52,559 nt of DNA from Rikenellaceae bacterium (GTDB lineage Bacteria; Bacteroidota; Bacteroidia; Bacteroidales; Rikenellaceae): positions 1 to 52,559 of the forward strand of contig JAFTYJ010000081.1 of assembly GCA_017464745.1 (NCBI GenBank). Direction: 5' to 3'. The notes beneath the pieces were generated by a model. That model was given only the letters and a program-made list of their open reading frames with translations, was not told where the DNA came from and did not search any database. The position numbers and the translations under genes are program-made. This document shows, one piece after another, positions 24,401 through 44,725 of the stretch; within the stretch, counting starts at the first letter, position 1, and every line of letters begins with the position of its first letter.

Positions 24401-24813
24401 AGATGAACCCGTTGTATATCAACGACCTGAATATCGACCTGTATCGTCAACGTACCAAACTTTCGGCAGGTAGTTACAGTGTTTCGGAGGATGGCGTTTA
24501 TACGATGAACGGCGATTGGTCGGGTGTTGCGGCTTGGGCTCTTGTTGACCCCGAAACCGAGCGTGTGATGGGTATCTATCAGGGTGCAGATTCTCAAATC
24601 AAGTATCGCTACTACACCTCGATTTATGAGGCTTTTGACCCCGAGAAACACGGCTACCGTGGCGAAGGTTGCCCCGAGGATTCGCCCTATTTGACCCACA
24701 ACAACGGCTACCAACGCTTTATGTTGATTGGCCCGGGTGTTATCCGCACCGACTTGAAACTCTATGGTGTGGACGTGTGGGGCCAGTATCACGAGGGTAC
24801 CCGCGTAGAGTAA
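21406..24813 (+). CDS. M60-family metallopeptidase lipoprotein 1 (BACON x3, F5/8C-like)
   Basis: A 1135-residue surface-type lipoprotein, first of seven. It starts with a lipoprotein signal ending ILWSC (Cys25) and an acidic tether EKTPVEGDDSK. Three BACON-like Ig domains follow (about 38-125, 126-212, 213-300; each ends in a TVxQL-type strand), then an F5/8 type C / CBM32-like domain (about 305-455), a linker domain (465-650), the M60 catalytic domain (about 650-990) and a beta-rich C-terminal domain. The zinc site is HELGH (His783, Glu784, His787) and, 14 residues on, Glu801 in GEVSNN, i.e. HExxH-x13-E. M60 enzymes of gut bacteria cut O-glycosylated mucin-type proteins; that activity is inferred here. 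Confidence 0.93.
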   Translation: MKLFLNCSKMFFTTLLSLMAILWSCEKTPVEGDDSKYIQIDEDVLYFDAEAMSEPVMVSVFATDNEWQIMQDDESKSWCEITTGVDEYQGKSLLVKLSANDTDDQRTASLSLYYETYTQGLTIIQLAAEDAAATTITCDSLVVVSRNLGEFTPKVEANGIYEVTTDATWLTYDNGVFYYDAYYGVEPRTAEVVLRSDYAEATMTVKQLGSVEAKIAADKYTVTYKEGSVTIPVERWNPASETEVVVESEWLTYDASKSTADSVVLKFPANTTEEQREAQVTIKVGVTTLTATVSQLVETGYEAVANDQQKDDLVLAVAKSTASSVYVTSRGASRAHDGNDLSWWGTSVKNNNDENWLTYEFADEQTLTQVDYMRYAPADNINWGSWGEIEVYITRNGVDELLGKYDFGKVKTPSVVYFDEPLAVEGLEKITVKILSAVPFSESVTSVASAGEFGLYQYNPDNFPTLDYFTDLSCWELRPEVTWEDIQAIRDPFYRNMAEQMFNGDYNRFRRHLAQAYRHPDEDAKVFQNSPKTLLDGVTGMYVAEVGDPQYIFLDEDYGQDIFLRIIDWVGDEGMAGRVLEHEGAVNYRLKKGRNVIIPSLRGLMYIFWHTEDYATLPRIRINFANSGVNGYFNAETDAPEDFYPTMMQAGLSPEPHFDIITDNVIMNFTKATLREFSFQKNPDLYKRAMRTIMIFDTVTRIQQIIQGFDKYAALGRERVYHNRAPFYAAYGDCFGGAGAYATVYGNRNMAHDILDPDHMWPENFDPAKLDNGKVGHCWGLAHELGHNNQTNHFGWRGLGEVSNNLMGAITQTTFFGEGNTTMRFNNHFNRCMADMVTRWVVDPDGTERHLTYCESVNTPQYGVSRTTSDPNHQPMVDPTTQLMPFWQLYLYYHRALEKTDFYPDFYELCRLDRPIKFRDWFLSGGMESSADQEYAMYEFMVKASTAAGEDLSGFCNDWHLPGINNRMLCSHYGQSVITTTQEEIDKRVAVCSKFPKPEMNPLYINDLNIDLYRQRTKLSAGSYSVSEDGVYTMNGDWSGVAAWALVDPETERVMGIYQGADSQIKYRYYTSIYEAFDPEKHGYRGEGCPEDSPYLTHNNGYQRFMLIGPGVIRTDLKLYGVDVWGQYHEGTRVE

Positions 24814-24821
24814 ATACCAAT

Positions 24822-24853
24822 GTGTGGGGTGGGGGCGAAACCCTGTCCCACAC
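24822..24853 (+). other. Intergenic hairpin, M60-1/M60-2
   Basis: GTGTGGG (24822-24828) pairs with CCCACAC (24847-24853) around an inner GGG/CCC stem with a GCGAAA-type loop. No T tract follows, so it is unlikely to stop transcription fully. Confidence 0.65.
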
Positions 24854-24897
24854 CTAATAATATATATACGAACAAATAACTTAATAATACTAATACT

Positions 24898-27800: not shown

Positions 27801-28386
27801 TATGATTAAGATTTCGATTGCCGCAGGCGAAGACCTGAGTGATTGGTCACAACACTGGGGTATCCCCGGCGTGAATGAGAACCTGCGTGTGTCGGTTTAT
27901 GGCCAAAACATTATCAACACCTCGCAAGAGATGATTGACAAAGCCGTTGCCGAGTGCCGCAAGTTCCCCAAACCGCGCCTCAATCCGTTCTACATCTGCG
28001 ACTCGAACCTGGATTTGTATCGTAATCCCAAAACTATCGTTCAAGGTTCGCACACCGTTGAGAACAAGAATGGCGCAGTGCGCGTGACCGTCGATGGCTG
28101 GCAAAACGTTGCCGCTTGGGTTCTGTATGACCCCGTTAAGAAACGCGACGTAGCCTGCTATGAGGGTCGTTTCACCTCGTTCAGTTATAAGGAGTACACC
28201 TGCAAGTACATCCTGCTGCCCGATGGCGCAACCAACCCCGAGGGTACCCGCTACCAATATTGTAAAGATGGTTATGGACGTTCGACCGAGAATGTAGGCC
28301 CGACCTTCCGCAATGACCTGCTCCTGTACGCTATCCACCCCGATGGTAGCCGCGTACCGAGCCTGTCGAACCCCACCCAAGACTAA
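24898..28386 (+). CDS. M60-family metallopeptidase lipoprotein 2 (BACON x3, F5/8C-like)
   Basis: A 1162-residue paralogue of the preceding protein. The signal ends VAVSC (Cys24) and is followed by TKPGPEPDDDSK, an acidic stretch of the kind linked to surface export. Three BACON-like domains run to about residue 300, then an F5/8C-like domain with YDGNDLSYWST (about 300-460), the linker domain, and the M60 core. The active site is HEIGH (His808, Glu809, His812) with the third zinc ligand Glu826 in TEVTNN (x13 spacing). It differs from protein 1 by a roughly 15-residue insertion before the RGHRNRAPFF segment. The ATG lies 84 nt after the previous stop; the leader is A/T-rich and has no TAnnTTTG box. 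Confidence 0.93.
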   Translation: MMKFLHNLKHAALMAFAVVVAVSCTKPGPEPDDDSKLLMLDQTEIYIPGEGLAEAQVITVLATDNEWQFQTDESATWLTVSAVTDAEGAKALAITAEANPSEEERQTEISLYYESVSISLTVIQVGKGETAATTITCEERIVVTKSFGEYTPEINADGAFEVVIPKEASWLSWENGKFFYDAHYDEQPRIVEVTLRSEFTETTLTFVQVGSLEFSLDKTAYTLPHKAGTLRIPLSTWLNEVCAVQIDVDWLRVNTEATVKDTVVLVFDENVESEPRNTDIVLSAGSTKVSVAIDQIGAKEYDAIVSDKQQADLILKVAKSEASSQFSNSRGAMKAAYDGNDLSYWSTTAKNQDGTVFITFEFAEEQEMTQVDYFRYCPARGISWGNWGKVEVWLQYEGESEETLFATYDFEMADTPRTIEFEEPLAANIRKATFKILTAKPFNETTTNVASAAGIEFCQYNPDNFPVREYFTDASCSVLKDDVTYDDILAIRDPFYRSMAEQIYNGDWNRFRVCEVKAYPHPDVDAKIFFTPPHTLLDNVTGMYVAEVGDPIYLFVEEDFGQEMYLRVCDMVGDEGLAERVVGRCESDYRIYKGKNVIIPQYRGLMYIIWHTPDYAKFPPIKINFATGHVNGFFYLDRDKPEDFYRLLRMGGNTEPHFDMLSDKVIMNFPKETIYNRTLRRNGENSADGARLVAIFDSIVRQQERWQGHDKYSKVYADVVKDDPTKSRGHRNRAPFFTLYGNAVAGSGWYRTGYGINSILQDVTDPIKMWNENTTLLGGSGTTDADARDLGPDVAANNTIGTIWGVAHEIGHSNQCRPFAWRGLTEVTNNLMCVGTQAALFGEGHTTLHYKMKYNEAWRDIGHRYITDFDASGNEVERRMTLAEAANTPAAGSSGGIDPAATLVPFWQLFLYYHYAMGNTDFYPDFFEQCRLRGDILFDHGWDFRGWSGNRELFDKSNNEQSWAMTDYMIKISIAAGEDLSDWSQHWGIPGVNENLRVSVYGQNIINTSQEMIDKAVAECRKFPKPRLNPFYICDSNLDLYRNPKTIVQGSHTVENKNGAVRVTVDGWQNVAAWVLYDPVKKRDVACYEGRFTSFSYKEYTCKYILLPDGATNPEGTRYQYCKDGYGRSTENVGPTFRNDLLLYAIHPDGSRVPSLSNPTQD

Positions 28387-28403
28387 AACCTATGCATAAC
28401 TGC

Positions 28404-28435
28404 CGCCCGCAAGTGATTTTTGTCGCTTGTGGGCG
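28404..28435 (+). other. Intergenic hairpin, M60-2/M60-3
   Basis: A 13-bp stem (28404-28416 with 28423-28435, two G-T wobbles) and a 6-nt T-rich loop. It is very stable but followed by GCGGTGGTGC rather than T residues. Confidence 0.75.
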
Positions 28436-28497
28436 CGGTGGTGCCAAGAGATGAGTAAATACACAAACTAAAATATTAACAAAAAAACACAAACAAC

Positions 28498-31400
28498 ATG
28501 AAACTTAACAAATTTTTTAGCTGGATGCTCGTCGCTATCGCCTTTGCAGGTTCGGTAGTGTCGTGTCAAAAACCCGGCCCCGAAGGTGGTGATGATACAA
28601 CCCCCTTCTTGTCTTTGCAACAAGACACTCTGTATTTTGGTTATGAGGCTAACGAGAATGTTGCGTTCAGCGTTAGTAGCCACGACCTTGCTTGGGAGTG
28701 CAACTACCCTGAGAACGATTGGTGTACCCTTAACCCCGTACCCGCTGTTGGTGGTGGCGAGATTCTGATTTCGGTTACCGAGAACAAAACCGGTGCCGAC
28801 CGCGAATTGGTTGTAACCGTAGTTAATGGCGACTTGGCTGAGCAATTCGTTGTATTCCAAAGTTTTAACACCGTAACCCCCGCAACCAGCATCGTGATTG
28901 ACCCCGCCGAGGTTGAACTGACCAAAGCAAGTGGTGCACTGACCGTTAAGGTTGAGGCTAATGGTGGTTATGAGGTTGTTATTCCTGAGGATTGCGACTG
29001 GATTAGCCACGACGGCCAAACCGACAAAGGCCAAGGTCTGTATGAAGAGGCCTTCTATGTTGAGGGTAACTTTGCAGCCGAGGAGCGTTCGGCAGTTGTT
29101 AAATTTGTCAGCCTGAACACCGAGGTTGAGATGCTCGTTAAACAATGGGGTACCGACGACCTCCGCCTGAGCATTAACGAACTGCTCGTGGGCTATGTTG
29201 CAGGCCGCGATAGCGTACAAGTTACCTCTCCCAATGCTTATACCGTAAGCGTTGATGGCGATTGGGTAACCTACGACCAAAAGGCTTCGGAGGCTTCGAC
29301 CGAGGGTTGGGTTTACTTTACCTACACCGAGAATGCGAGCGAGACCGACAACCGTGAGGCTACTCTGACCGTTAAAACCGCAAGTTCGAGCGAGTCGTTG
29401 GTAATCACCCAAGTTAAGGCTTCGGTTGCCGAGATGCCCGAGAAGGACGACTTCAAAGCCGACCTGGGTGTTGTAATCACCAAAGTTACTTCGAGCAACG
29501 GCCAACAATCGAATGGTAACGCTGTAACTCGTCTGTATGACGGTAACACCATCTCGAAATGGTACTCGAACTACACCAAAACCGAGACCGATCCCGAACT
29601 CGTAATTGACGTGGATGCTTCGGAGGTTGATTGCATCAACTACTTCAAATACTACCCCGTAACCACCTCGGACGGTAACAACCTGTGGGGTCGCTGGGGT
29701 ACCTTCGACCTCTACTACACCGTAGACGGCCAAGAGGTTAAATATGGCACCTTCGACTTCGGTAAGAAAGGTACCGACCAAATTGTTGAGTTTGAGCCCG
29801 CTCTGCCCAACACCGTAACCCAATTCCGTATTGTGGTTACCAGCGCATCGCCCTACGAACTCAAAGGCAATGTTTATGAGAAAGTGGCTTCGGCTTCGGA
29901 GATTGGTTTCTTCCAATACAACCCCGAGATGTTCCAGGCTCTGGATTACTTTACCGACTGGTCGCTGTCGGAACTCAAAGAGGGTATCACTCTGAACGAT
30001 ATCGTTGCTATCAAAGACCCCTTCTATCGTACTATCGCCGAGCAAATCTTCTATGGTACCTACGATGATGAGTTCCGTGTATGCGAGTTCAAGGCTTATC
30101 CCCGTCCCGAGCGTGACTACGAGATTTTCCGCGACAAACCTTTCACCGTGCTTGACAACGTAACCGGTATGTATGTCGAGAAAGCCAACACTCCTCAATA
30201 CATCTACCTGGATGAGGACTACGGCTTGGAGATTTATATTCGTGTGTGCGACCAAGCAAACTACGAGACCACTTCGAACCCGATGGGTACCGGTCCCGAC
30301 TCGCACAAATACGACTACAAAATCCAAAAAGGTCGTAACGTGATTGTTCCCGCTTACCGTGGCCAAATGTACATCCTGGCATTCGATGACGAGAACTATG
30401 ACAAGATTCCTCCCATGAAGGCTCACTTCGTGAACTCGGGCGTGAACGGTTACTTGGATTACACCAAACACACCGTAGAGGATGTTCACCGCATCTTTAT
30501 GCTTGCACCTTCGACCAAAGAGCCTCGCTTCGATATGATTGGTGAGGACTTCATCCTGAACTTCGAGAAGGCTCAATATTTGAAGGCTACCTTCAACGGT
30601 AACCCCCGCGACAATGCACAACGCGCATTCGACCTGATGGAGGTTTACGACTCGGTAACCAAGATTCAGGAGCGTATCCAAGGTCACTACAAATACGCAG
30701 CCCAAGGTCTGCAACGTACCCACCGCAACCGTATGTTGTTTATGGGTTCGTATAGTGACGCGTTCGGCTACTCGTCGTGGTACCACACCGGCTACTCGGC
30801 TGCAATGTCGGCTGACGTTGTGAACCCCACCAAACTGTGGAACAAGAAGACTACCGTATGGAATAACGGCGTGGTAGGTGCCATTTGGGGTATCGCCCAC
30901 GAGTTGGGTCACTCGTCGCAAACCGACCTGTTCACCTGGCAAGGTATGGCCGAGGTTTCGAACAACCTGATGTGTGCCATCACCCAAAACTACGTTTATG
31001 GTTTGGGTCTGGGCCGTACCACCATGAACTACAACGACCACTTCAACAAAGGTATGCGCGATATGGCAAAACGTTGGATTTGGGACTTCGACGAGAATGG
31101 CGAGCCTTATGAGCGTCCGTTCACTCACCACGAGTCGGTTAATACCCCCAGCTTCGGTAATATCGATGGTGGTGTTGACCCCACTACTCAGTTGATGCCT
31201 TTCTACCAACTGTTCTTGTACTACCACGTGGTGTTGGGTAACAATGATTTCTACCCCGACTTCTATGAGTTGTGCCGTGTTAAATATCCGGCTCTCCGTG
31301 CTGCATATTCGAACCACGATGAGTTCCAATCGGCTATCGCTCTGGAATATATGAAATCGATTTCGGAGGCTGCCGGTGAGGACCTGAGTGACTTCGCTTG

Positions 31401-31980
31401 TGACTGGGGTATCCCCGGTGTGAACCCCGCAATGGGTATCAACAAGGGTTGCAAAGTAAACCACTACGGTCAAGCATTCTTTATGAGCACCAAAGAGCAA
31501 GTTGAGGCTTCGGTTGCTGCTTGTCAAAAATTCCCCAAACCCAAGATGAACCCGTTGTACATCCACGACGACAACTTGGATTTGTATCGCAACCCGCAAC
31601 CTGTTACCGCAGGTACCCACACTGTGGATGACCGAGGTAACTTCACTATGAGCGGTTGGTCGAATGTTGTTGCTTGGGTGCTGCACGACCCCAACAAGGT
31701 AAACGAGAAAGGCGAGATGGGCCGTGACGTTGCCGTAATCGAGTGCAAGAACCCCAATGGCGGTGGTACTTTCAACTACGCTTACAAGGAGTCGCGCTAT
31801 ATGATTAACGACGCCGGTACCGACTACAAGTACAACAACGGCTCGTCGTACGCTTCGAACGACAAGGGTACTATGCGTTCGTTGGAGAAAGTTTCGGCCG
31901 ACTACGAGTACACCAAAACTCTGCAACTCTATGCTGTGGATGCCTACGGTACTCGTTACGCAAGCCAAAGCAACAAGTAA
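28498..31980 (+). CDS. M60-family metallopeptidase lipoprotein 3 (BACON x3, F5/8C-like)
   Basis: A 1160-residue member of the long class. The signal ends SVVSC (Cys23), followed by QKPGPEGGDD. Three BACON-like domains occupy about 35-305, with core motifs DWCTL, DWISH and DWVTY at the conserved Trp. An F5/8C-like domain (about 310-470) contains RLYDGNTISKWYSN. The catalytic zinc site is HELGH (His801, Glu802, His805) and Glu819 in AEVSNN. The C-terminal domain reads MNPLYIHDDNLDLYRNPQPV and is shared nearly verbatim with protein 4, suggesting these two are the closest pair within the long class. Start is the ATG at 28498 after an A-rich leader. Confidence 0.93.
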   Translation: MKLNKFFSWMLVAIAFAGSVVSCQKPGPEGGDDTTPFLSLQQDTLYFGYEANENVAFSVSSHDLAWECNYPENDWCTLNPVPAVGGGEILISVTENKTGADRELVVTVVNGDLAEQFVVFQSFNTVTPATSIVIDPAEVELTKASGALTVKVEANGGYEVVIPEDCDWISHDGQTDKGQGLYEEAFYVEGNFAAEERSAVVKFVSLNTEVEMLVKQWGTDDLRLSINELLVGYVAGRDSVQVTSPNAYTVSVDGDWVTYDQKASEASTEGWVYFTYTENASETDNREATLTVKTASSSESLVITQVKASVAEMPEKDDFKADLGVVITKVTSSNGQQSNGNAVTRLYDGNTISKWYSNYTKTETDPELVIDVDASEVDCINYFKYYPVTTSDGNNLWGRWGTFDLYYTVDGQEVKYGTFDFGKKGTDQIVEFEPALPNTVTQFRIVVTSASPYELKGNVYEKVASASEIGFFQYNPEMFQALDYFTDWSLSELKEGITLNDIVAIKDPFYRTIAEQIFYGTYDDEFRVCEFKAYPRPERDYEIFRDKPFTVLDNVTGMYVEKANTPQYIYLDEDYGLEIYIRVCDQANYETTSNPMGTGPDSHKYDYKIQKGRNVIVPAYRGQMYILAFDDENYDKIPPMKAHFVNSGVNGYLDYTKHTVEDVHRIFMLAPSTKEPRFDMIGEDFILNFEKAQYLKATFNGNPRDNAQRAFDLMEVYDSVTKIQERIQGHYKYAAQGLQRTHRNRMLFMGSYSDAFGYSSWYHTGYSAAMSADVVNPTKLWNKKTTVWNNGVVGAIWGIAHELGHSSQTDLFTWQGMAEVSNNLMCAITQNYVYGLGLGRTTMNYNDHFNKGMRDMAKRWIWDFDENGEPYERPFTHHESVNTPSFGNIDGGVDPTTQLMPFYQLFLYYHVVLGNNDFYPDFYELCRVKYPALRAAYSNHDEFQSAIALEYMKSISEAAGEDLSDFACDWGIPGVNPAMGINKGCKVNHYGQAFFMSTKEQVEASVAACQKFPKPKMNPLYIHDDNLDLYRNPQPVTAGTHTVDDRGNFTMSGWSNVVAWVLHDPNKVNEKGEMGRDVAVIECKNPNGGGTFNYAYKESRYMINDAGTDYKYNNGSSYASNDKGTMRSLEKVSADYEYTKTLQLYAVDAYGTRYASQSNK

Positions 31981-31994
31981 TAGAATGGTGATAG

Positions 31995-32032
31995 CGACAC
32001 CGAGGGTGGAGTAGACTCCTCCCTCGGCGTTG
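31995..32032 (+). other. Intergenic hairpin, M60-3/M60-4
   Basis: About 15 of 17 positions pair between 31995-32011 and 32016-32032, with a TAGA loop. No T tract follows. Confidence 0.7.
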
Positions 32033-32092
32033 CCGTCATAATATTATAATAGGTGTGTCGAGTGCGACATACCATACTAAAATTAAATCTTT

Positions 32093-35000
32093 ATGAAAAA
32101 GTTAGCATATCTGCTGGGCGCATTGGCGGTGTTCGCATTGGCCGTGGTCGGCTGTACAAAGCCCCCCCAAGAGACTCCCGAACCGGAGGCATTCTTAACT
32201 ATTGAGAAAGATACCTTGTGGGTGCCCGCAATAGGAACTCCCGAGCCCGAATTTATAAAGGTCTATGCCTCTACTAAGGATTGGACCGCATCGACCGAGG
32301 CCGATTGGCTGACCGTGGAACCGACCTATGACCTTGTGAACGATTATCTGAATGTGATGGTCGGCGAGAACACCGGCGAAACAACCCGTGAAACCACAAT
32401 CTGGCTCTATAATGGAGATGTACAAGCCCAATTGGTGGTTGTACAGTTTGCCGATACCCGCGTTGAGGCAACCCGTATCATCCCCTCCGACACCCTCTAT
32501 ATAGCGCAAAAATCGATGGGAAGTCTTGAAATTCCCATTGTGGCCGATGGTGTCTATGAGGTGAGCGTCGATAAAAGTTGGCTCTACTATGCCGAACAGG
32601 TGACCAAAGATGGCCAAGTGAGCGAGAAATTCGACTACGATGGCTCGTATGAGAAAGCCCCCAGATATGCAACTGTAACTTTCAGTAGCGAAGAGACCTC
32701 GACCTCGGTGCGTGTTATGCAGTGGGGTAGCCAAGTGCTGTTTGTGACTGCACCCGAGACTCTGAACTATATGTTTACCAAAAGTGTGCCTCAAACAATC
32801 ACCGTTATGGCTAATGGTGATTGGCTGCCCGTGGTCGAAGCCGAATGGGTAGACTTTGAGGTTAAAGAGGGTGGATTGGTTGATACTCTGGTTGTTAGCG
32901 TTGCCGACAACGAGGTAGCCGAGGCACGTAATGCAACCCTGACCATTTCGTGTGGTGACGAGAACGTGGAGATTAAAGTGTCGCAAGATGCCAAAAAAGA
33001 GTTTGGCGATGTGTCGCAAATGGAGTACCCCAGCGATACGGAGATTAAACCTTCTAATGCTACGGCTTCGTCCAATAGATACACTCAATATGGTGCTTTG
33101 AAGGCGATTGATGGCGACCTCAACACCTATTGGGAGTCGAGCTATTATACCGATAAGGCTCCGTGGATTTCGATTGAATTCGACCCCGCGAAGTACGACC
33201 AAATCGACTATATGGTGGTATATCCTTATCTGCCTTATACATCCAAATCGAATGGCTTATGGGATGATGTTGATATTTATGTTACCGATGGCGCAGGAAC
33301 CGAAACCAAATTGATGTCGTATGATTTCAATCAAACGATTAATCCTGTAACCATCACTTTCGAGCAACCGCTCAAAGGCATTAAGTCGATTCGTTTCAAC
33401 GTTCTCTCTTCGTACAATAGCAATACTCCAGGTACTGCTGCCGCCGAGCGTCTGTATGCAGGTTTGATGGATGTTAAATTCTACAAGAAGGATACCACGT
33501 TCGAGCCTCTGTCAGTGTTTACCGATTGGTCGCTTAGCGAGCTTCGTCCCGAGGTAACTCTGGAACAAATCGAGGCAATGCCCGTTGAGTTGTACCGTAC
33601 CCTCGCCGAGCAACTCTACTATGGAGTGTATGACGGTGAGTTCCGTATCTGTAAGTTCAAGGCGTTCCCGCACCCCGATGTTGATGCCAAGCTTTTCCGC
33701 ACCAATACCTACACACTGCTTGATAATGTGACGGGTATGTACGTTGCCGAGCCGGGTGATACCATCCGTATCTTCTTGGACGACACTCACGGTCAGAATG
33801 TTTCGGTGCGTGTTATTGACTGGGTTAATTACGAGAGTTTCTCGGCCAGCACCGCCAACAGAGCTTACGTAAAGGTTAATGGCAACTACCAATATGTGAC
33901 TCATACCCACTCGCTCCGTCAGGGCTACAACGAGATTGTTCCGTTGACCCGCGGTTTGATGTACATTATGTGCCACACCGACGACTATGCAAACATCCCC
34001 GAGATGACTGCACACTTCCTGACCGGTGAAGTGAACGGCTACATCGAGTTGGGTAAAACCGATATTAGCCGTGCTTACGAACTGCTTCGTATGGGTGGCA
34101 ATACCGAACCTCACTTCGATATGATGTCGCACAAGGCTCTGATTAACTTCCCCAAAGCGATGTTCTATGAGGGTACGTTCAAAAAGAACAGTGCCAACAC
34201 CCACCGCGTTGAGGAACTGTTGCACCTGTTCGATACCGTGATGTATATTCAAGAGGATGTTCAGGGTCACTATAAATACAAAGCGCTGGGCCAACAACGT
34301 GTTCACCGTAACCGCGCTCTGTTCCACGGTACCTACACCTCGTACTATGGTGCTTCGTCGGCGTATCGTACCTACTACAATGTGAATAGTATGGGTAAAA
34401 CCATCGTCGATCCCACCGAACAATGGAAAAAGAATGTAACCCATTACAATAATGATGTTGTGGGCTCGATTTGGGGTCTGGCGCACGAGTTGGGCCACAC
34501 CAACCAAACCGAGATGTTCAAATGGAGAGGTCTGACCGAGGTTACCAACAACCTGATGTGTGCCATTACCCAATGGATTTTCTATGGCGAGGGTAACACC
34601 ACAATGCGTTTCAACGACCACTTCAACCGCAGTATGATTGACATCGCAACCCGTGTTATCTGGGATTTCGACGATGAGGGTAACTACTTTGAGCGCCCTC
34701 TCACCCACTGCGAGTCGGTGAACACCCCCTGCTATCGTAACTTCTCGGAGGGTACCGACCCCACTTCGCAGTTGATGCCCTTCTGGCAGTTGTACCTCTA
34801 CTACCACGTAGCGTTGGGTAAGACCGATTTCTATCCCGACTTCTATGAGTTGTGCCGTGTCAAAGACGTGCGCTCGGAGAACTATGCTACCACCGATGAG
34901 TTCAACTCGGCAATGACTCTGGAATATATGAAGTCTATTTCGGAGGCTGCCGGCGAGGACCTTAGCGACTTTGCCCAAGCGTGGGGTCTGCCCGGTATCA

Positions 35001-35554
35001 ATAGCGCAAAAGGTGTCAATAAGGGTGTGAAGGTTAACCACTATGGCCAAAACTTCATTACCACCTCGAAAGAGCAGGTTGCTGCATCGGTTGCCGCTTG
35101 TCAAAAGTACCCCAAACCCAAGATGAATCCGTTATATATTCACGACCTGAATATTGACCTGTATCGCAACCCGCAACCCGTCACCGCAGGTACCCACTCG
35201 GTGGACGACCAGGGTAACTTCACGGTTAGCGGTTGGCAAAATGTTGTTGCTTGGGTGCTGGTTGACCCTGCCAAGAAAGACCTCCGCACCGGCGAACAAG
35301 GTCGTGTGGTAGCAATCAAGAAGTGGGATGACGCTTTGAACGGCGGTTTCCAATATGTGTACAAGGAGTCGTACTACAAACCTATTGCTGAGGGTAATTA
35401 TACCGACTACTTCTATACCGACGGTACCGACAATAAGGTTGGAACTTCGCGTGGCTTGGCCGAGGCGGTTCTCGACTATGAGTACGCCAAAGGTCTGCAA
35501 CTCTACGCTGTGGATGCTTATGGTGTTCGCTACGCAAGTCAAAGTAACAAATAG
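32093..35554 (+). CDS. M60-family metallopeptidase lipoprotein 4 (BACON x3, F5/8C-like)
   Basis: A 1153-residue protein, last of the long class. The signal ends AVVGC (Cys21), then TKPPQETPEPEA. Three BACON-like domains to about residue 308 are followed by the best-preserved F5/8C-like domain of the array (about 310-466: ASSNRYTQYGALKAIDGDLN then TYWESSY). This pattern of ASS and DGD-x-TYWES is classic for discoidin-type sugar binding. The M60 site is HELGH (His798, Glu799, His802) and Glu816 in TEVTNN. The C-terminus ends YAVDAYGVRYASQSNK, almost identical to protein 3. A small 5-bp hairpin (TGTCG/CGACA) lies in its leader. Confidence 0.93.
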   Translation: MKKLAYLLGALAVFALAVVGCTKPPQETPEPEAFLTIEKDTLWVPAIGTPEPEFIKVYASTKDWTASTEADWLTVEPTYDLVNDYLNVMVGENTGETTRETTIWLYNGDVQAQLVVVQFADTRVEATRIIPSDTLYIAQKSMGSLEIPIVADGVYEVSVDKSWLYYAEQVTKDGQVSEKFDYDGSYEKAPRYATVTFSSEETSTSVRVMQWGSQVLFVTAPETLNYMFTKSVPQTITVMANGDWLPVVEAEWVDFEVKEGGLVDTLVVSVADNEVAEARNATLTISCGDENVEIKVSQDAKKEFGDVSQMEYPSDTEIKPSNATASSNRYTQYGALKAIDGDLNTYWESSYYTDKAPWISIEFDPAKYDQIDYMVVYPYLPYTSKSNGLWDDVDIYVTDGAGTETKLMSYDFNQTINPVTITFEQPLKGIKSIRFNVLSSYNSNTPGTAAAERLYAGLMDVKFYKKDTTFEPLSVFTDWSLSELRPEVTLEQIEAMPVELYRTLAEQLYYGVYDGEFRICKFKAFPHPDVDAKLFRTNTYTLLDNVTGMYVAEPGDTIRIFLDDTHGQNVSVRVIDWVNYESFSASTANRAYVKVNGNYQYVTHTHSLRQGYNEIVPLTRGLMYIMCHTDDYANIPEMTAHFLTGEVNGYIELGKTDISRAYELLRMGGNTEPHFDMMSHKALINFPKAMFYEGTFKKNSANTHRVEELLHLFDTVMYIQEDVQGHYKYKALGQQRVHRNRALFHGTYTSYYGASSAYRTYYNVNSMGKTIVDPTEQWKKNVTHYNNDVVGSIWGLAHELGHTNQTEMFKWRGLTEVTNNLMCAITQWIFYGEGNTTMRFNDHFNRSMIDIATRVIWDFDDEGNYFERPLTHCESVNTPCYRNFSEGTDPTSQLMPFWQLYLYYHVALGKTDFYPDFYELCRVKDVRSENYATTDEFNSAMTLEYMKSISEAAGEDLSDFAQAWGLPGINSAKGVNKGVKVNHYGQNFITTSKEQVAASVAACQKYPKPKMNPLYIHDLNIDLYRNPQPVTAGTHSVDDQGNFTVSGWQNVVAWVLVDPAKKDLRTGEQGRVVAIKKWDDALNGGFQYVYKESYYKPIAEGNYTDYFYTDGTDNKVGTSRGLAEAVLDYEYAKGLQLYAVDAYGVRYASQSNK

Positions 35555-35571
35555 TAAAACCACATCCCTCA

Positions 35572-35597
35572 CTCTTCCGAGTTTGGCCTCGGAAGAG
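35572..35597 (+). other. Intergenic hairpin, M60-4/M60-5
   Basis: A perfect 10-bp stem CTCTTCCGAG / CTCGGAAGAG with loop TTTGGC. It is followed by CGCAGGAG, not T residues. It marks the boundary between the long and the short protein class. Confidence 0.75.
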
Positions 35598-35657
35598 CGC
35601 AGGAGAAAATAATGATATTAATACAATCAAAATAATAATCTAAAACAATCACACTTT

Positions 35658-38603
35658 ATGAAAAAGTATCTGTATGTTCTTTTGGCAGCAGTTTTGGTGT
35701 GCTTCTCGTGTACCCCTCCTGCTCCTGAGCCACCTGCTGAACCTGAGGAAATTATTGCACTTGTAACCGAGTCGCTGTCGTTTGCGGCCGTTGATGCAGA
35801 GCCCCAAGAAGTTGAGGTTGTGCTCCAAAACTGTGTTGAGTGGAATATTTCGTCGTTGGACGAGTGGGCTAAGGCCGAGAAAACAATCGTAGATGACGTT
35901 ATTATGCTCCGTGTTTCGGTTGAGAATAACACCGCCGAGGAGCCCCGTACCACCACTATCTATCTGTCGGGTCAAACCGCCGAAGCCGAACTTACCGTAA
36001 CCCAATTGGGCTTTGCTCCCGCAATGGTTGTTGAACCTAAGGAGTTGTCGTTTGGGGCTGAGGGTGGCGAGGCTGCTATTGCCATTACCACCAATGTCGA
36101 GTACACCACCAAATGCTCGGCCGATTGGATTACCGTGACCCAAACCGAAACAGGTCTGCAAATCGTTGCTGCCGAGAATACCACCGTTGTTGAGCGTAAA
36201 GCCAATGTCGATATTTCGACCGACTACTCGCTTGGTGCACGTATCGAGGTTGTTCAAGAGGCCGGCGAGGAGCCTGCTCGTGTTCGTGAGAACGAGGCTT
36301 GCTTTGTTCCCTACGAGAGCATTACCTATGAGGGTGAATCGCGCTCGGGCTATGGTATCGAGTTGGCTTATGACAACGACCTGGATACCTATTGGTCGTG
36401 CCCCAACTCGGGTATCGACGAGAACGCTGTGCTGACTTTCCATTTCAGCGGTGAGTGGCGTGTTGATTATATGGAGTACTATCCCAGCCCCGAGTATGGT
36501 TGGTGGGGTGAGTTCTCGGTGAAATACCTCCCCGAGGGAAGTTTCAAATATGTTGAGTTGGGCGACTTCGACTTCGGTATGAAGGACGGCAAACAAACTC
36601 TGAAATTCAAAGAGACCCTGAACAATGTTGAGGAGATTGTAATTGAGGTTAAGACCGCCAAAGGCCGTAGTATGACCAAAGGTCTGTTGGCAGGTGCTTC
36701 GGAGATTGAGTTCTACTACAACGACAACGTGTATATGACCGCTTTGGAGGTGTTCGAGGATAAATCGTGCTCGGTATTCCGCAAGAAAGATTTCTCGGAG
36801 GCCGACCTCGCCAAGATTCAAGACTCGACCCTGCGTGCTATTGCAAGCGTTATGCTGGCTCGTACCCCCGAGGAGAACGAGTTCCGTGTGGCTAACTACA
36901 AATCGTATCCCCACCCCGACCTGGATGCTGCCCGCTTCCTGAACAGCCCCTATACCAAATACGACAACGCAACCGGAGTACTGCTGTTGCCCGGCAAAAC
37001 TTATACTATCTGTGTAAGTGACGACGGCCGTGACGATATCTCGCCCAAATTAACCGTTATCAACTACAAAACCCCCAAGACCGTTGATGGCAAAATCAGC
37101 ACCACCGAGTTCAACTGGAACGCACGCGATTACAATCTGCGTCCCGGTATCAACCATATCTCGATTCCTGCGAATAGCACCAACAGCCATTATGGTGGTT
37201 TGTGCTACATCCAACTGCACTCGACCAGCGACCTGTCGATTAACGTAAACTTTGTTGACGGTGAGGTGAATGGTTACTTCGATGTTGACAAGCACTCGCC
37301 CGACCGTTGGGAGGAGTTGCTGAACAAATCGTTCGATTTGGAAGATAAATATGGCTTCCCCGCCCACTTTGATATGCGTAACGAGCGCGTCCTTATGTCG
37401 TTCCCGTCGTACCTCTATACGCAGAAAACCAAAACCGGTGAGCGTGCTGTGACTCTGATTAACCACTTCAAAGAGATTGTAGAACTCGAAGAAGAGGTTC
37501 AAGGACACAACCTGTTCAATACAGGAGGTCACGCCAACCGTATGCATATGATAGGCCGTTATGGTGGTTCGTATATGTATGCAACCTCGTATCATACAGG
37601 TTACAACATCCTGGCTGCTCCCGGTGTACTTGACCCCGATGGTCAGCGTGAAAGTTGTTGGGGTGTTGCTCACGAGATAGGTCACGTCAACCAGGTTCGC
37701 CCGATTTTGAAATGGGTTGGTACTACTGAGGTTACCAACAACATCTGCTCGGCGTACGTTCAGTGGACGTTTAACAACTTTACGGTGTTGGGCCAAAAGA
37801 CCTCGACCCACGGCTTCAATGCTGCAATGAGAGATTGTATGGCTCGTGGTTGCTCGCACGTGTTGGTTGGCTCGTGGGACGCTGCCTACTACTTGAAGGT
37901 TGTTCCCTTCTGGCAGTTGTACCTCTACTTCACCGAAATCAAGGGTATGACCGACTTCTATCCCACTATCTACCAGACCTCGCGCAACTATCCTGATGCT
38001 AAAACCGTTAGCAACGAGGAGGCAATGTTGCGTTTCTGTGAGTTGGTGAGCGATATTGTTAAACTCGATATGACCGAGTTCTTTGAGCGTTGGGGCTTCC
38101 TGACTCCTGTCGATGGCGTTTGGTTTAGCGACTATGGAGCAAAGCAAATTTATATTACCCAAGAGCGTATTGACAAGGCTCGCAAACATATGGCTCAATA
38201 TCCCAAACCTACTCAACCTATTCACTTCATCTCGGAGCACAATATGGAGTTGTTCCGCAATCCTGCCGAAGTGACCGTTGGTACGGTTGAGAAGACCACC
38301 GGCTCGAACCGTTACTGGTTCAAAGGCTGGGAGAACTGTGTTGCCTTTATTGTTGAGGGTAGCGACGGCAAATGGTATGCTATCAACGATACCTCGGCTG
38401 CTTACCTCTACACCAAGTGGAACGAGTTCAAATGGGGTGACTCGGATGGTAACCTAAGCCCCGACGGTTCGAACTCCAAAACTTACTACTGCACCGTTGG
38501 TAGTTATGAGGTGAACTTCACAGAGAAGAATACTCCCGCGCTGAAAGATGCCAAATTCTATGGCGTTGATGCAAATGGTGTATTCCACGAGTATAAAAAA
38601 TAG
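35658..38603 (+). CDS. M60-family metallopeptidase lipoprotein 5 (short class, BACON x2)
   Basis: A 981-residue protein, first of the short class. The signal MKKYLYVLLA ends CFSC (Cys18), followed by a Pro/Glu-rich tether TPPAPEPPAEPEE. Two BACON-like domains (about 30-117, 118-205) precede an F5/8C-like domain (about 215-355, with AYDNDLDTYWSCPNSG). The M60 site is HEIGH (His672, Glu673, His676) with the third ligand Glu691 in TEVTNN. The spacing is x14, one residue longer than in proteins 1-4, because RPILKWVGTT replaces the RPFAWRGLT type. It is very similar to protein 6, including a 91-bp identical DNA block near the 3' end. The C-terminal domain carries WFKGWENCVAF. Confidence 0.93.
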   Translation: MKKYLYVLLAAVLVCFSCTPPAPEPPAEPEEIIALVTESLSFAAVDAEPQEVEVVLQNCVEWNISSLDEWAKAEKTIVDDVIMLRVSVENNTAEEPRTTTIYLSGQTAEAELTVTQLGFAPAMVVEPKELSFGAEGGEAAIAITTNVEYTTKCSADWITVTQTETGLQIVAAENTTVVERKANVDISTDYSLGARIEVVQEAGEEPARVRENEACFVPYESITYEGESRSGYGIELAYDNDLDTYWSCPNSGIDENAVLTFHFSGEWRVDYMEYYPSPEYGWWGEFSVKYLPEGSFKYVELGDFDFGMKDGKQTLKFKETLNNVEEIVIEVKTAKGRSMTKGLLAGASEIEFYYNDNVYMTALEVFEDKSCSVFRKKDFSEADLAKIQDSTLRAIASVMLARTPEENEFRVANYKSYPHPDLDAARFLNSPYTKYDNATGVLLLPGKTYTICVSDDGRDDISPKLTVINYKTPKTVDGKISTTEFNWNARDYNLRPGINHISIPANSTNSHYGGLCYIQLHSTSDLSINVNFVDGEVNGYFDVDKHSPDRWEELLNKSFDLEDKYGFPAHFDMRNERVLMSFPSYLYTQKTKTGERAVTLINHFKEIVELEEEVQGHNLFNTGGHANRMHMIGRYGGSYMYATSYHTGYNILAAPGVLDPDGQRESCWGVAHEIGHVNQVRPILKWVGTTEVTNNICSAYVQWTFNNFTVLGQKTSTHGFNAAMRDCMARGCSHVLVGSWDAAYYLKVVPFWQLYLYFTEIKGMTDFYPTIYQTSRNYPDAKTVSNEEAMLRFCELVSDIVKLDMTEFFERWGFLTPVDGVWFSDYGAKQIYITQERIDKARKHMAQYPKPTQPIHFISEHNMELFRNPAEVTVGTVEKTTGSNRYWFKGWENCVAFIVEGSDGKWYAINDTSAAYLYTKWNEFKWGDSDGNLSPDGSNSKTYYCTVGSYEVNFTEKNTPALKDAKFYGVDANGVFHEYKK

Positions 38604-38621
38604 ATAAATCAATAGCTGTGA

Positions 38622-38647
38622 CAGGTTCCCACAAATGCGGGAACCTG
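38622..38647 (+). other. Intergenic hairpin, M60-5/M60-6 (covarying pair)
   Basis: A 9-bp stem CAGGTTCCC / GGGAACCTG with an 8-nt loop. It is flanked by GTGA and CCGCATCT, which are kept in the next gap at 41642-41668. Confidence 0.8.
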
Positions 38648-38673
38648 CCGCATCTCTACTAATATCGCACTTT

Positions 38674-41622
38674 ATGAAAAAGTATCTTTTTGCTCTTTGG
38701 GCAGTTGTGGCGACACTTTTGTCGTGTACCCCTCCTGCTCCTGAGATACCTGAGGAACCTGAGGAAATTATTGCACTTGTAACCGAGTCGCTTTCGTTTG
38801 CGGCCGTTGATGCAGAGCCCCACGCAGTTGAGGTTGGGCTCCACAACTGCAAGGAGTGGAATGTGACAGCGCTGGATGAGTGGGTTAAGACCGAGAAGAC
38901 CATCGTTGATGATGTCTTTATGCTTCGTGTGTCGGTTGAGGATAATACCGCCGAGGAGCCTCGTATTACTACTGTATATGTGGCTGGTCAAACCGCCGAA
39001 GCCGAACTTACCGTAACCCAATTGGGCTTTGCTCCCGCAATGGTTGTTGAGCCTAAGGAGTTGTCGTTTGAGGCTGAGGGTGGCGAGGCCGCTGTTGCCA
39101 TTACCACCAATGTCGAGTACACTACCAAATGCTCGGCCGATTGGATTAGCGTAACTCAAACCGAAACAGGCCTGCAAATCGTTGCTGCCGAGAACCCCAC
39201 TTATGAGGAGCGTAAAGCCAATGTCGATATTTCGACCGACTACTCGCTTGGTGCACGTATCGAGGTTGTGCAGGCTGCTGCCGAGAAACCCGCTCGTGTT
39301 CGTGAGAATGAGGCTTGCTTTGTCCCCTACGAGAGCATTACCTATGAGAGTGAATCGCGCTCGGGTTATGGCATCGAGTTGGCTTATGACAACGACTTGG
39401 AAACCTATTGGTCGTGCCCCAACTCGGGTATCGACGAGAATGCCGTGCTGACCTTCCACTTCAATGGCAAAATGCGTATTGACTATATGGAGTACTATCC
39501 CAGCCCCGAGTATGGTTGGTGGGGTGAGTTCTCGGTGAAATATAAAGAACAAGACGCTAAGACCTATGTTGAGTTGGGCGACTTCGACTTCGGTATGAGG
39601 GATGGCAAACAAACCCTGAATTTCAAGGAGTCGCTGATGAACGTTGAGGAGATTGTAGTTGAGGTTAAGAGTGCCAAAGGCCGTAGCGTGACCAAAGGTC
39701 TGCTGGCAGGTGCTGCCGAGATTGAGTTCTACTACAACGACAACGTGTATATGAACGCATTGGAGTTGTTCGAGGATGAGTCGTGCTCGGTATTCCGCAA
39801 TAAAGATTTCTCGGAGGCCGACCTTGCCAAGATTCAAGACGAGGAACTCCGTAGTATTGCCGAAATTATGCTGGCTCGTACCCCCGAGGATAACGAGTTC
39901 CGTGTGGCAATCTGCAAATCGTATCCCAACCCGACCATCGACGCACAACGTTTCTTGAACGCCGAGTACTCGGAGTATGACAACGTAACAGGTATGTTGC
40001 TGTTGCCGGGCAATACCTACACTATCTGTGTGAGTGACGACGGCCGCGATGACCTGGCTCCCAAGTTGACAGTTATCAACTACAAAACCCCCAAGACGGT
40101 TAATGGAAACATCAGCACCACCGAGTTCAATTGGGCCGCACGTGATTACGCTCTGCGCCCCGGTATCAACCATATCAAGATTCCTGCAAACAATGAGGTT
40201 GATAACTATGGCGGTCTGTGCTATGTCAAATTGATGTCGACCAAAGATTTGTCGATTAAAGTAAACTTTATCGACGGTGAGGTCAATGGCTACTTCGACC
40301 CCACTATGCACTCGACCGACCGTTGGGAGGAGTTGTTGGCTAATTCGTTTGCAATCGAGGAGAAATACGGCTTCCCCGCTCACTTCGATATGCGTAACCA
40401 GCGTATCATTATGTCGTTCCCCTCGTATCTGCTTCGCGATCGTACCAAAACCGGTGACCGCGCCAAAGAGGTGCTCGATATCTATGCCGAGATTATCGAA
40501 CTCGAAGAGGAATTGCAAGGTCATAAACTGTTTAATACCGGTGGCCACGCCAACCGTATGCATATGGTGGGTCGCTATGGTGGCTCGTTTATGTATGCTA
40601 CTTCGTACCACACGGGTTACAACATCCTGGCTGCTCCCGATTGTGTGAATCCCGATGGTCTGCGTGCCGGCTGCTGGGGCCCTGCTCACGAGTTTGGTCA
40701 CGTCAACCAGGTTCGCCCGATTTTGAAATGGGTTGGTACTACCGAGGTTACCAACAACATCTGCTCGGCTTATGTTCAATGGAAATTTAACGACTATACC
40801 GTTCTGGGTAATCAATCCTCATCGCACGGTTTCAACGGTGCGTTCCGTGACCTTATGGCTCGCGGTTGCTCGCACGTGTTGGTTGGCTCGTGGGATGCTG
40901 CCTACTACCTGAAAGTCGTTCCTTTCTGGCAGTTGTACCTCTACTTCACCGAAATCAAGGGTATGACCGATTTCTATCCCATCATCTACCACACTTCGCG
41001 TAACTATCCCGATGCACAGAGTGTTAGCAACGAGGAGGCGATGTTGCGTTTCTGTGAGTTGGTGAGCGATGTCGTAAAACTCGATATGACCGAGTTCTTC
41101 GAACGTTGGGGCTTCCTGACTCCTGTCGATGGCGTTTGGTTTAACGACTATGGCTCGCGTCAAATTTACATCACTCAGGAGCGTATCGACAAGGCTCGCA
41201 AGCATATGTCGCAATATCCCAAACCTACTCAACCTATCCACTTCATCTCGGAGCATAATATGCACCTGTTTAGGGAGCCCGCAGAGGTAACCGTGGGTAC
41301 AGTTGAGAAGACCCCCGGCTCGAACCGTTACTGGTTCAAAGGCTGGGAGAACTGTGTTGCCTTTATTGTTGAGGGTAGCGACGGCAAATGGTATGCTATC
41401 AACGACACTTCGGCTGCTTACCTCTACACCAAGTGGAAAGATTTCCATTGGGGTGACTCGGATGGTAACCTGAGCCCCGACGGTTCGAACTCCAAAACTT
41501 ACTATTGCACCGTTGGTAGTTATGATGTGAACTTGACCGACAAGAACACTCCTGCACTCAAAGAGCCTCGATTCTATGGCGTTGATGCAAATGGCGTGTT
41601 CCACGAATTTAAGCAAGAATAA
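38674..41622 (+). CDS. M60-family metallopeptidase lipoprotein 6 (short class, BACON x2)
   Basis: I start at ATG 38674 (MKKYLFALWA), giving 982 residues with lipoprotein Cys18 in TLLSC. The in-frame ATG 39 nt upstream lies inside the intergenic hairpin region and would mask the signal peptide. After the tether TPPAPEIPEEPEE come two BACON-like domains, an F5/8C-like domain (AYDNDLETYWSC) and the M60 domain. Its site is HEFGH (His672, Glu673, His676) plus Glu691, at the same residue numbers as in protein 5. The close similarity over the full length indicates a recent tandem duplication. Differences cluster at the linker around residues 400-430 and at the loop before the catalytic motif. Confidence 0.93.
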   Translation: MKKYLFALWAVVATLLSCTPPAPEIPEEPEEIIALVTESLSFAAVDAEPHAVEVGLHNCKEWNVTALDEWVKTEKTIVDDVFMLRVSVEDNTAEEPRITTVYVAGQTAEAELTVTQLGFAPAMVVEPKELSFEAEGGEAAVAITTNVEYTTKCSADWISVTQTETGLQIVAAENPTYEERKANVDISTDYSLGARIEVVQAAAEKPARVRENEACFVPYESITYESESRSGYGIELAYDNDLETYWSCPNSGIDENAVLTFHFNGKMRIDYMEYYPSPEYGWWGEFSVKYKEQDAKTYVELGDFDFGMRDGKQTLNFKESLMNVEEIVVEVKSAKGRSVTKGLLAGAAEIEFYYNDNVYMNALELFEDESCSVFRNKDFSEADLAKIQDEELRSIAEIMLARTPEDNEFRVAICKSYPNPTIDAQRFLNAEYSEYDNVTGMLLLPGNTYTICVSDDGRDDLAPKLTVINYKTPKTVNGNISTTEFNWAARDYALRPGINHIKIPANNEVDNYGGLCYVKLMSTKDLSIKVNFIDGEVNGYFDPTMHSTDRWEELLANSFAIEEKYGFPAHFDMRNQRIIMSFPSYLLRDRTKTGDRAKEVLDIYAEIIELEEELQGHKLFNTGGHANRMHMVGRYGGSFMYATSYHTGYNILAAPDCVNPDGLRAGCWGPAHEFGHVNQVRPILKWVGTTEVTNNICSAYVQWKFNDYTVLGNQSSSHGFNGAFRDLMARGCSHVLVGSWDAAYYLKVVPFWQLYLYFTEIKGMTDFYPIIYHTSRNYPDAQSVSNEEAMLRFCELVSDVVKLDMTEFFERWGFLTPVDGVWFNDYGSRQIYITQERIDKARKHMSQYPKPTQPIHFISEHNMHLFREPAEVTVGTVEKTPGSNRYWFKGWENCVAFIVEGSDGKWYAINDTSAAYLYTKWKDFHWGDSDGNLSPDGSNSKTYYCTVGSYDVNLTDKNTPALKEPRFYGVDANGVFHEFKQE

Positions 41623-41641
41623 CTTTAATGGTTGGGTGTGA

Positions 41642-41668
41642 CAAGTTCCTGCCGAGTGTAGGAACTTG
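41642..41668 (+). other. Intergenic hairpin, M60-6/M60-7 (covarying pair)
   Basis: A 9-bp stem CAAGTTCCT / AGGAACTTG with a 9-nt loop, in the same GTGA...CCGCATCT context as the hairpin at 38622-38647. Two stem pairs differ by compensatory changes. Confidence 0.8.
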
Positions 41669-41696
41669 CCGCATCTGCAAAAAAAAATCAAATACT

Positions 41697-44657
41697 ATGA
41701 TGAAAAAAATCTTTTTAATGCTGATGGTCGTGGTTGCAGCCTTCACGGGGTGTACACCTCCTCCCGATGATACTATTCCTGCACCTGCCGAGAGTATCAC
41801 CTTGGGTACCGAGTCGCTGTCGTTTGCGGCAGTTGGCGCAGAGCCTCAGGATGTGGCAGTTACTTTGGAGAATTGCAAAGAGTGGGAGGCTACCGTAATG
41901 GACGAGTGGGCAGTGGTTGAGAAAACCATTGTCGGCGAGGGTCTGGGTATCCGTGTGTCGGTTGAGGATAATACCGCCGAGGAGCCCCGTACCACAACTG
42001 TTTATGTAGCAGGCCAAACCGAAATGGCCGAACTTACCGTAACCCAATTGGGTTTTGCTCCCGCGCTGGTTGTTGAGCCTAAGGAGTTGTCGTTTGAGGC
42101 TAAGGGTGGCGAGGCCGCTGTTGCCGTTACCACCAACCTCGAATACGATGTCGATTGCTCGGCCGAGTGGGTTAGCGTAACCACCTCGGAGAACGGCCTG
42201 AATGTCGTTGTTGCCGAGAATACCACCCTGGTTGAGCGTGAGGCTACTATCTCTATCACAACCGACTACTCGTTGAGCGCCCGTATCACTGTTAGCCAAG
42301 AGGCCGGCGAGGAACCCGTTCGAGTTCGTGAGAATGAGGCTTGCTTTGTTCCCTACACCTCGCTCATCTATAAGGAAGACTCGCGTTCGGGTCACGGTAT
42401 CGAGTTGGCTTATGACAACAACCTCGAAACCTATTGGTCGTGCCCCAACTCGGGTATCGACGAGAACGCTGTTCTGACTTTTGAGTTCGATGGTCGCTAC
42501 CGTATCGACTATATGGACTACTATCCCAGCCCCGAGTATGGCCAATGGGGCGAGTTCTCGGTGAAATACAAACTCCAAGACAGCAAGACCTACGTTGAGT
42601 TGGGTGATTTCGACTTCGGTATGAGAGATGGCAAACAGACCCTGAATTTCGAGGAGTCGCTGGTTGGTGTTACCGAAATCGTGATTGAGGTTAAAACCGC
42701 CAAAGGCCGTAGCGTAACCAAAGGTCTGCTGGCAGGTGCTACCGAGATTGAGTTCTTCTACTCGGATGATGTTTACTACAAACCTATCGAGTTGTTTGTC
42801 GACGATTCGTGCTCGGAGTTCAAAGACCCGAACTTCTCGGAGTCAGACCTTGACAAAATCCAAGATTCGACTCTGCGCGCTATTGCCGACATTATGCTCC
42901 ACCGCAAGGCCGAGGATAACGAGTTCCGCGTGGCTACCTATCACACATACCAACACCCCGACATTGATGCCGAGAAGTATCACACTTCGACCTATACCAA
43001 GTTGGACAACGTGACCGGTATTCTGATGTATCCGGGTCGCACCTATACCGTGTGCGTGAGTGATGACGGTCGTGAAGAAGTCAGCCCTCGTTTGGTGGTT
43101 GCTAACTACAAGTGGCGATATAAGGATTACTCGAATCGCCATGATTCTCACTGGGGTTGCAGCTCCCAAAGTTACAGCCTGCGTACGGGTATCAACCAAA
43201 TTACCATTCCTTCGAACGTTCCTTCGAACGAACGTTTTTATGGTGGTCTGTGTTACCTGGAGTACTTCTCAAATTCGAAAGCCGAGATTAAGGTGAACTT
43301 CGTCGATGGCGAGGTGAACGGCTATTGGGATTCCGAGATGCACGGTCCCGAGCGTTTCGAAGAGTTGCTGAACAAATCAATCGCTCTGAAAAACGAGGAA
43401 CTCTCAATCTATCCTCACTTCGATATGCGTAGCCCCGAGGTTGTTATGACCTTTGGCTCGGATCTGATTCAACAACACACCCGTGACGGCGAGCGCGCCA
43501 TGGAGTTGATACAGATTCTGGATAGCATCGTATGGCTCGAAGAGCAACTTCAAGGTCACCACCTCTTCAATACAGGTGCCCACGCCAACCGTATGCGTAT
43601 GGTAGGTCGTTATGGTGGCTCGTATATGTATGCGGGTTCGTATGAGACGGGTTACGACGTGTCGAGCTGGGATTGCCAACTCACCGTTCTTGACCCCTAT
43701 CACACTCGTCGTGGTTGCTGGGGTATCGCCCACGAGATGGGTCACGTCAACCAAGTGCGTAACGGTCTGAAATGGATTGGTACCTCGGAGGTAACCAACA
43801 ACATCTGCTCGGCATACGTTCAGTTTAAGCTCAACGGCGAGACAATGTTGCGTACCAACACCAAGAACGTAGGTTATGAGGGTGCATTTGCCGACCTTAT
43901 GTCGCGTGGTTGCTCGCACATCCTGGTTGGTTCGTGGGACGAGGCTTACTACTTGAAGGTTGTTCCCTTCTGGCAGTTGTACCTCTACTTCACCGAGGTG
44001 AAGGGCATGACCGACTTCTATCCGACTATCTACCACACCGTTCGTAACTATCCCGACTGCGCCACTATGAAGGACGAGGAGGCTATGTTGCGTTTCTGTG
44101 AGCTGGTGAGTGACGTTGTCAAACTCGATATGACCGAGTTCTTTGAGCGTTGGGGATTCCTGACTCCTGTTGAAAATGTATACTTTAACGACTACGGTAA
44201 ATGTCTGATTAACATCTCGAAGGAGCGTATCGACAAGGCTCGTGAACATATGGCACAATATCCCAAGCCCGAGCAACCTATCCACTTCATTACCGAGAAC
44301 AACATTAACTTGTTCAAGGAGCCCGTTGATATTGTAGTAGGTAAGGTGGCACACTCCAAGAATACCACCAAATACCACTTCAAGAACTGGGAAAACTGTG
44401 TGGCATATGTTGTTCAAGGCTCGGATGGCAAAGTCTATGGCGTAGGTGATGCTTGCCAAAAGGCATTTGTCTTTACCGAGTGGAATGAGTTTGCGTGGGG
44501 TAACGACGCAGGTGCAACTTCGAGCACCAACTCGTCGGAGTTCTACAAAACCGTAGGCAAAAACCTCAAATCGTGGACCGAAACCAATGCTCCTGCTTTG
44601 AACGATGCCAAATACTTTGGCGTGGATGCCAAGGGCGTATGGCACGAGGCAGAGTAG
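41697..44657 (+). CDS. M60-family metallopeptidase lipoprotein 7 (short class, BACON x2)
   Basis: I start at the ATG-ATG pair at 41697 (MMKKIFLMLM), giving 986 residues with lipoprotein Cys19 in AFTGC and the tether TPPPDDTIPAPAE. Two BACON-like domains and an F5/8C-like domain (AYDNNLETYWSC) match proteins 5 and 6. The M60 site is HEMGH (His679, Glu680, His683) and Glu698 in SEVTNN (x14). It is the most diverged short-class member: it has a longer loop near residue 485 (KWRYKDYSNRHDSHWGCSSQ) and a different C-terminal domain surface (FKNWENCVAYVVQGSDGK). A strong terminator 24 nt after the stop closes the array. Confidence 0.93.
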   Translation: MMKKIFLMLMVVVAAFTGCTPPPDDTIPAPAESITLGTESLSFAAVGAEPQDVAVTLENCKEWEATVMDEWAVVEKTIVGEGLGIRVSVEDNTAEEPRTTTVYVAGQTEMAELTVTQLGFAPALVVEPKELSFEAKGGEAAVAVTTNLEYDVDCSAEWVSVTTSENGLNVVVAENTTLVEREATISITTDYSLSARITVSQEAGEEPVRVRENEACFVPYTSLIYKEDSRSGHGIELAYDNNLETYWSCPNSGIDENAVLTFEFDGRYRIDYMDYYPSPEYGQWGEFSVKYKLQDSKTYVELGDFDFGMRDGKQTLNFEESLVGVTEIVIEVKTAKGRSVTKGLLAGATEIEFFYSDDVYYKPIELFVDDSCSEFKDPNFSESDLDKIQDSTLRAIADIMLHRKAEDNEFRVATYHTYQHPDIDAEKYHTSTYTKLDNVTGILMYPGRTYTVCVSDDGREEVSPRLVVANYKWRYKDYSNRHDSHWGCSSQSYSLRTGINQITIPSNVPSNERFYGGLCYLEYFSNSKAEIKVNFVDGEVNGYWDSEMHGPERFEELLNKSIALKNEELSIYPHFDMRSPEVVMTFGSDLIQQHTRDGERAMELIQILDSIVWLEEQLQGHHLFNTGAHANRMRMVGRYGGSYMYAGSYETGYDVSSWDCQLTVLDPYHTRRGCWGIAHEMGHVNQVRNGLKWIGTSEVTNNICSAYVQFKLNGETMLRTNTKNVGYEGAFADLMSRGCSHILVGSWDEAYYLKVVPFWQLYLYFTEVKGMTDFYPTIYHTVRNYPDCATMKDEEAMLRFCELVSDVVKLDMTEFFERWGFLTPVENVYFNDYGKCLINISKERIDKAREHMAQYPKPEQPIHFITENNINLFKEPVDIVVGKVAHSKNTTKYHFKNWENCVAYVVQGSDGKVYGVGDACQKAFVFTEWNEFAWGNDAGATSSTNSSEFYKTVGKNLKSWTETNAPALNDAKYFGVDAKGVWHEAE

Positions 44658-44680: not shown

Positions 44681-44725
44681 AAATGGCTGTTCAACCGCGA
44701 AAGGTTGAACAGCCATTTGTATTTT
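44681..44725. terminator. Terminator closing the M60 array
   Basis: A perfect 16-bp stem (44681-44696 with 44703-44718), a GCGAAA tetraloop-like loop, then GTATTTTG. It sits between the last M60 gene and the convergent DUF454 gene and can serve both. Confidence 0.88.

Follow-up and report, generated by a model that had tools for sequence, protein, structure and literature searches.

Intercistronic hairpins recur along a seven-gene M60 peptidase cluster of a Rikenellaceae bacterium and may form a processing or stabilising series

The window analysed here (the whole stretch of 52,559 nucleotides of a Rikenellaceae bacterium, contig JAFTYJ010000081.1) carries seven tandem M60 peptidase genes, and two of the gaps between them contain hairpins whose stems differ by paired base changes. 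This raises the question of whether the RNA fold itself is kept and, if so, as what kind of element. BACON and Peptidase_M60 domains were found in all seven gene products (21406-44657), some of which also gave an F5/8-type C domain that scored at the cut-off or slightly below it. The genes are as follows.

21406-24813, + strand: M60-1, BACON + Peptidase_M60 lipoprotein
24898-28386, + strand: M60-2
28498-31980, + strand: M60-3
32093-35554, + strand: M60-4
35658-38603, + strand: M60-5
38674-41622, + strand: M60-6, protein 83% identical to M60-5
41700-44657, + strand: M60-7

The Bacteroidota -7 motif TAnnTTTG was not found in any cluster gap; it is 2 times more common in the window than in shuffled sequences. 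From the common strand and the lack of this promoter motif in the gaps, we infer that the seven M60 genes are transcribed as one mRNA. Between gyrB and M60-1, a 31-nt unit (GAGCGAAACTAGGAGTGAGAGATAAACCTGG) is repeated 2.8 times at 21159-21244 of the window, with no other copy in the genome. A 1709-aa antisense open frame (21454-26583, - strand) lies over M60-1 and M60-2, and long antisense frames recur across all of the M60 cluster genes, probably as an effect of codon usage.

The initial annotation had described a covarying hairpin shared by gaps M60-5/6 and M60-6/7 over the range 38622-41668. Most of this range is the M60-6 gene, and the hairpins, each about 42 nt, lie at its two ends.

38614-38655, + strand: post-stop hairpin of gap M60-5/6; upper stem 38622-38630/38639-38647, A38621.C38648 mismatch, lower stem 38617-38620/38649-38652
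41634-41676, + strand: post-stop hairpin of gap M60-6/7, paralogue of the 5/6 hairpin; upper stem 41642-41652/41658-41668, A.C mismatch, lower stem 41637-41640/41670-41673

The stem arms that had been written out are present in both gaps: CAGGTTCCC (38622-38630) and GGGAACCTG (38639-38647) in gap 5/6, and CAAGTTCCT (41642-41650) and AGGAACTTG (41660-41668) in gap 6/7. Alignment of the two hairpins also bore out the two differing pairs with both partners changed (G-C/A-U and C-G/U-A). Eleven of the 14 pairs are invariant, two are changed on both sides, and a third varying pair that had been overlooked is A.C in one hairpin and G.U in the other. The sequences GTGA and CCGCA, which had been taken for identical flanks, are indeed alike in the two gaps but are not flanks, as TGTG pairs with CGCA to form the lower stem. 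The A.C mismatch divides the upper from the lower stem in both hairpins, and since these segments pair across it, the helix comprises approximately 14 pairs.

Folding energies compared with those of shuffled sequences gave z values of -5.8 (5/6) and -5.0 (6/7). As a control on the 5/6-6/7 alignment, for which shuffling of two sequences carries no weight, the partner was slid by 1-3 columns; the proportion of paired cells fell from 96% to 21-46%, and the compensated pairs fell to 0. The probability that two differences per arm of a 9-bp stem hit partners and stay complementary by chance was approximately 0.003-0.007. A genome-wide search located the stem sequence in these two places only, no match was obtained in IMG/VR, and the single GTDB match, in an unrelated Clostridia MAG, was read as chance. 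The M60-5 and M60-6 genes align lengthwise (66-94% per 100 nt); within the gap, which has otherwise diverged, the hairpin is a distinct block. Because the stem is confined to two sites of the genome, we regard the 5/6 and 6/7 hairpins as paralogues from the duplication of a gene unit, and their likeness reflects the duplication of the whole unit.

The covariation between these hairpins is real; however, two paralogues are insufficient to choose between selection and template switching (PMC8794818). In the latter process, perfect stems and compensatory changes can both arise in one event (PMC8794818), so covariation alone is no proof of selection. The hairpins might be functionless palindromes that template-switch mutation creates and repairs during replication, with the paired changes coming from the mutation mechanism. 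The comparison with other gaps and other species bears on this explanation.

The two-hairpin picture is correct for both of its members, but the hairpins of the other four cluster gaps had been overlooked. A strong hairpin is present in all six gaps of the seven-gene cluster and starts within approximately 20 nt of the stop codon. The remaining hairpins are the following, where G002 is a relative of the same genus.

24822-24853, + strand: post-stop hairpin of gap M60-1/2, without U-run, dG approximately -21
28394-28444, + strand: post-stop hairpin of gap M60-2/3, without U-run, dG approximately -35; its G002 orthologue has one pair changed on both sides
31988-32039, + strand: first post-stop hairpin of gap M60-3/4, without U-run, dG approximately -35
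32052-32073, + strand: second, smaller hairpin of gap M60-3/4, GGTGTGTCG AGTG CGACATACC, z -4.9
35565-35606, + strand: post-stop hairpin of gap M60-4/5, without U-run
44681-44725, + strand: U-tailed terminator hairpin after the last cluster gene

At the gathering score, Rfam matched only tRNAs in the window, and the hairpins were unmatched. The sense fold was stronger than the antisense fold in 10 of 15 cases; there is thus no consistent sense-strand advantage, and strand asymmetry is no proof of a role as RNA.

We compared the M60-M60 gaps with other gaps using crude gene calls (simple ORF picks) that covered portions of the own genome and of G002. In the own genome, a strong U-less hairpin was found in 7 of 7 M60-M60 gaps versus 7 of the 86 other gaps of 40-200 nt between same-strand genes (p 3.6e-7), and in G002 in 4 of 6 versus 1 of 40 (p 4e-4); the M60 comparison set was chosen after the pattern had been seen, and these p-values are therefore descriptive. 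The count admits mismatched stems and stems that contain several G-U pairs, and it includes U-tracts paired inside the stem. Gap 2/3 of G002, lost at a locus boundary in the count of 4 of 6, is one further positive. The gap of a separate M60 pair in the same genome (G000:C24; L040 7028) also contains a U-less post-stop hairpin, and in G002 the gap of a similar M60 pair (L036, stop at 9551) contains no hairpin.

The main hairpins of the six internal gaps have no U-run longer than 3 directly behind the stem. Like intrinsic (Rho-independent) terminators, they are stem-loops at gene ends; the six internal ones are U-less, whereas the seventh, which follows the last gene, has a U-tail. In a consensus scan, the last cluster gene was the only gene with a + strand terminator at its end. 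Ordinary intrinsic terminators were therefore rejected for the six internal hairpins, with no U-run directly behind the stem, and only 44681-44725 qualifies. The same hairpins could still cause leaky termination or pausing, by which expression would drop stepwise along the cluster (attenuation or polarity). Their position directly behind stop codons and their strong stems, down to approximately -35 kcal/mol, would suit such a role, but a U-run is seen in 0 of 6, unlike in the hairpin that closes the cluster and in most of those at gene ends of the own genome (72 of 98 hairpins carry a U-tract where gene ends converge). We consider this explanation unlikely, and the missing U-run also makes the attenuation role proposed in the initial annotation less likely.

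The M60 cluster was found in 3 of 11 genus members; a GTDB protein scan returned no relatives. In G002, hairpins are present in five of the six main-cluster gaps (1/2, 2/3, 3/4 with two, 4/5, and 5/6) and absent from 6/7, and in G005 a single hairpin follows M60-3. The absence of the 6/7 hairpin from G002 and of nearly all hairpins from G005 indicates that the hairpin is not essential to the cluster. In G005 (L037, G005:C17:20000-39999), the orthologous cluster contains a fusion of two M60 proteins, a single open frame of approximately 2165 aa with no internal stop, which ends at position 10123 of the locus on the - strand.

The paired-change comparison covers two paralogues and one orthologue pair. 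The stems of orthologous gaps are mostly unrelated in sequence between the window and G002. Gap 3/4 has two hairpins in both genomes, with differing stems. In gap 2/3, the 3' arm is nearly identical, one pair has both partners changed (U·G to A-U), and two others have a single partner changed; we take the G002 hairpin of this gap to be a true orthologue. The expectation that the 5/6-6/7 element would be kept between the M60 genes of relatives failed, since in G002 the orthologue of gap 5/6 contains a different hairpin and that of gap 6/7 contains none. Complete turnover of the stem between species at most gaps, as well as the survival of G005 without nearly all of the hairpins, would agree with template-switch palindromes. 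However, the enrichment in M60 gaps, the post-stop position, and the recurrence in orthologous gaps would be unexpected if the palindromes were neutral, and we regard a purely mutational origin as quite improbable.

The M60 gaps that bear hairpins are 70-112 nt in length, and those without hairpins are 14-56 nt. The hairpins might insulate translation by holding the stop codon and the following ribosome-binding site apart, or deny Rho access to the untranslated gap: they occupy the 5' half of each gap, an A-rich open leader precedes the next start, and translation across the short hairpin-less gaps would be close-coupled. Rho is present in the genus, as it scored over the cut-off in 7 of 10 other members; for this reason its absence from the own assembly (83% complete) is probably an assembly gap. 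On the other hand, such a hairpin is absent from many other gaps of the genome that are 60-130 nt long, and insulation of this kind appears quite unlikely.

REPs and other intercistronic palindromes, such as those of E. coli, stabilise upstream mRNA, and REPs form a single sequence family scattered genome-wide. The M60 hairpins are likewise palindromes behind a stop codon that could act as a barrier to 3' exonucleases, but the 5/6-6/7 stem occurs at two sites only and the other M60 stems are unrelated. A dispersed REP-like element was rejected on account of the two genome copies of this stem.

In the SRPS system of the clostridial cip-cel (cellulosome) operon, 28 of the 33 stem-loops are without a U-run, and the number and stability of orthologous stem-loops vary between species (PMC4423207). 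The cip-cel stem-loops are both cleavage signals and stabilisers (PMC10311766), and the stabiliser class is defined without a poly(U) tail (PMC8219983). SRPS is further marked by an endonucleolytic processing site beside the stem-loop and by a ratio of upstream to downstream transcripts that tracks stem-loop stability (PMC4423207, PMC10311766, PMC8219983). The M60 cluster resembles this system in its series of intercistronic stem-loops within an operon of many genes for extracellular enzymes; the stem-loops are mostly U-less, with stems gained, lost, or changed between related species. A stable stem-loop at a gene 3' end inside a putative multi-gene operon was found in six gaps, and the main M60 gap hairpins carry no poly(U) tail. 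The M60 cluster differs in that it belongs to a Bacteroidota-type genome, encodes lipoprotein peptidases, has a hairpin in every gap rather than in a selected few, and is known here from sequence. SRPS has been described in clostridia and E. coli, and no worked Bacteroidota case turned up in our literature searches; such control in gut-type Bacteroidota was only guessed at by Xu et al. (PMC4423207).

The match to SRPS in U-less, stable stem-loops that are gained and lost between species, together with the encoded processing enzymes (RNase E/G, RNase III, RNase Y, and a contig-split PNPase), leads us to favour a stabiliser or processing model. We attach roughly even confidence to the reading that the 5/6 and 6/7 hairpins are part of a series of intercistronic stem-loops that runs through the operon and has an SRPS-like processing or stabilising role. 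The earlier proposal of a retained fold with a function in processing or stability remains the best reading, to which the other gaps and the second species add weight, although no conserved sequence family underlies it. Under this model, the seven tandem genes for BACON + M60 surface peptidases would be read as one mRNA, and an endoribonuclease would cut each gap in its A/T-rich part or beside the stem. The hairpin left on the 3' end of the upstream message would stop 3'-to-5' exonucleases, so that half-life and level could be set separately for each peptidase message. The 5/6 and 6/7 hairpins would be copies from the duplication of the gene unit that have drifted with their pairs retained.

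More tentatively, an SRPS-like stem-loop code in a Bacteroidota lineage could set the individual dosages of the M60 peptidases, with stems turning over while position and fold are kept. The three related species, whose orthologous gaps are with or without a hairpin, offer a natural comparison. If true, this proposal would carry operon-internal dosage control by stem-loops, as worked out for clostridial cellulosomes, over to gut-type Bacteroidota and their surface peptidase arrays.
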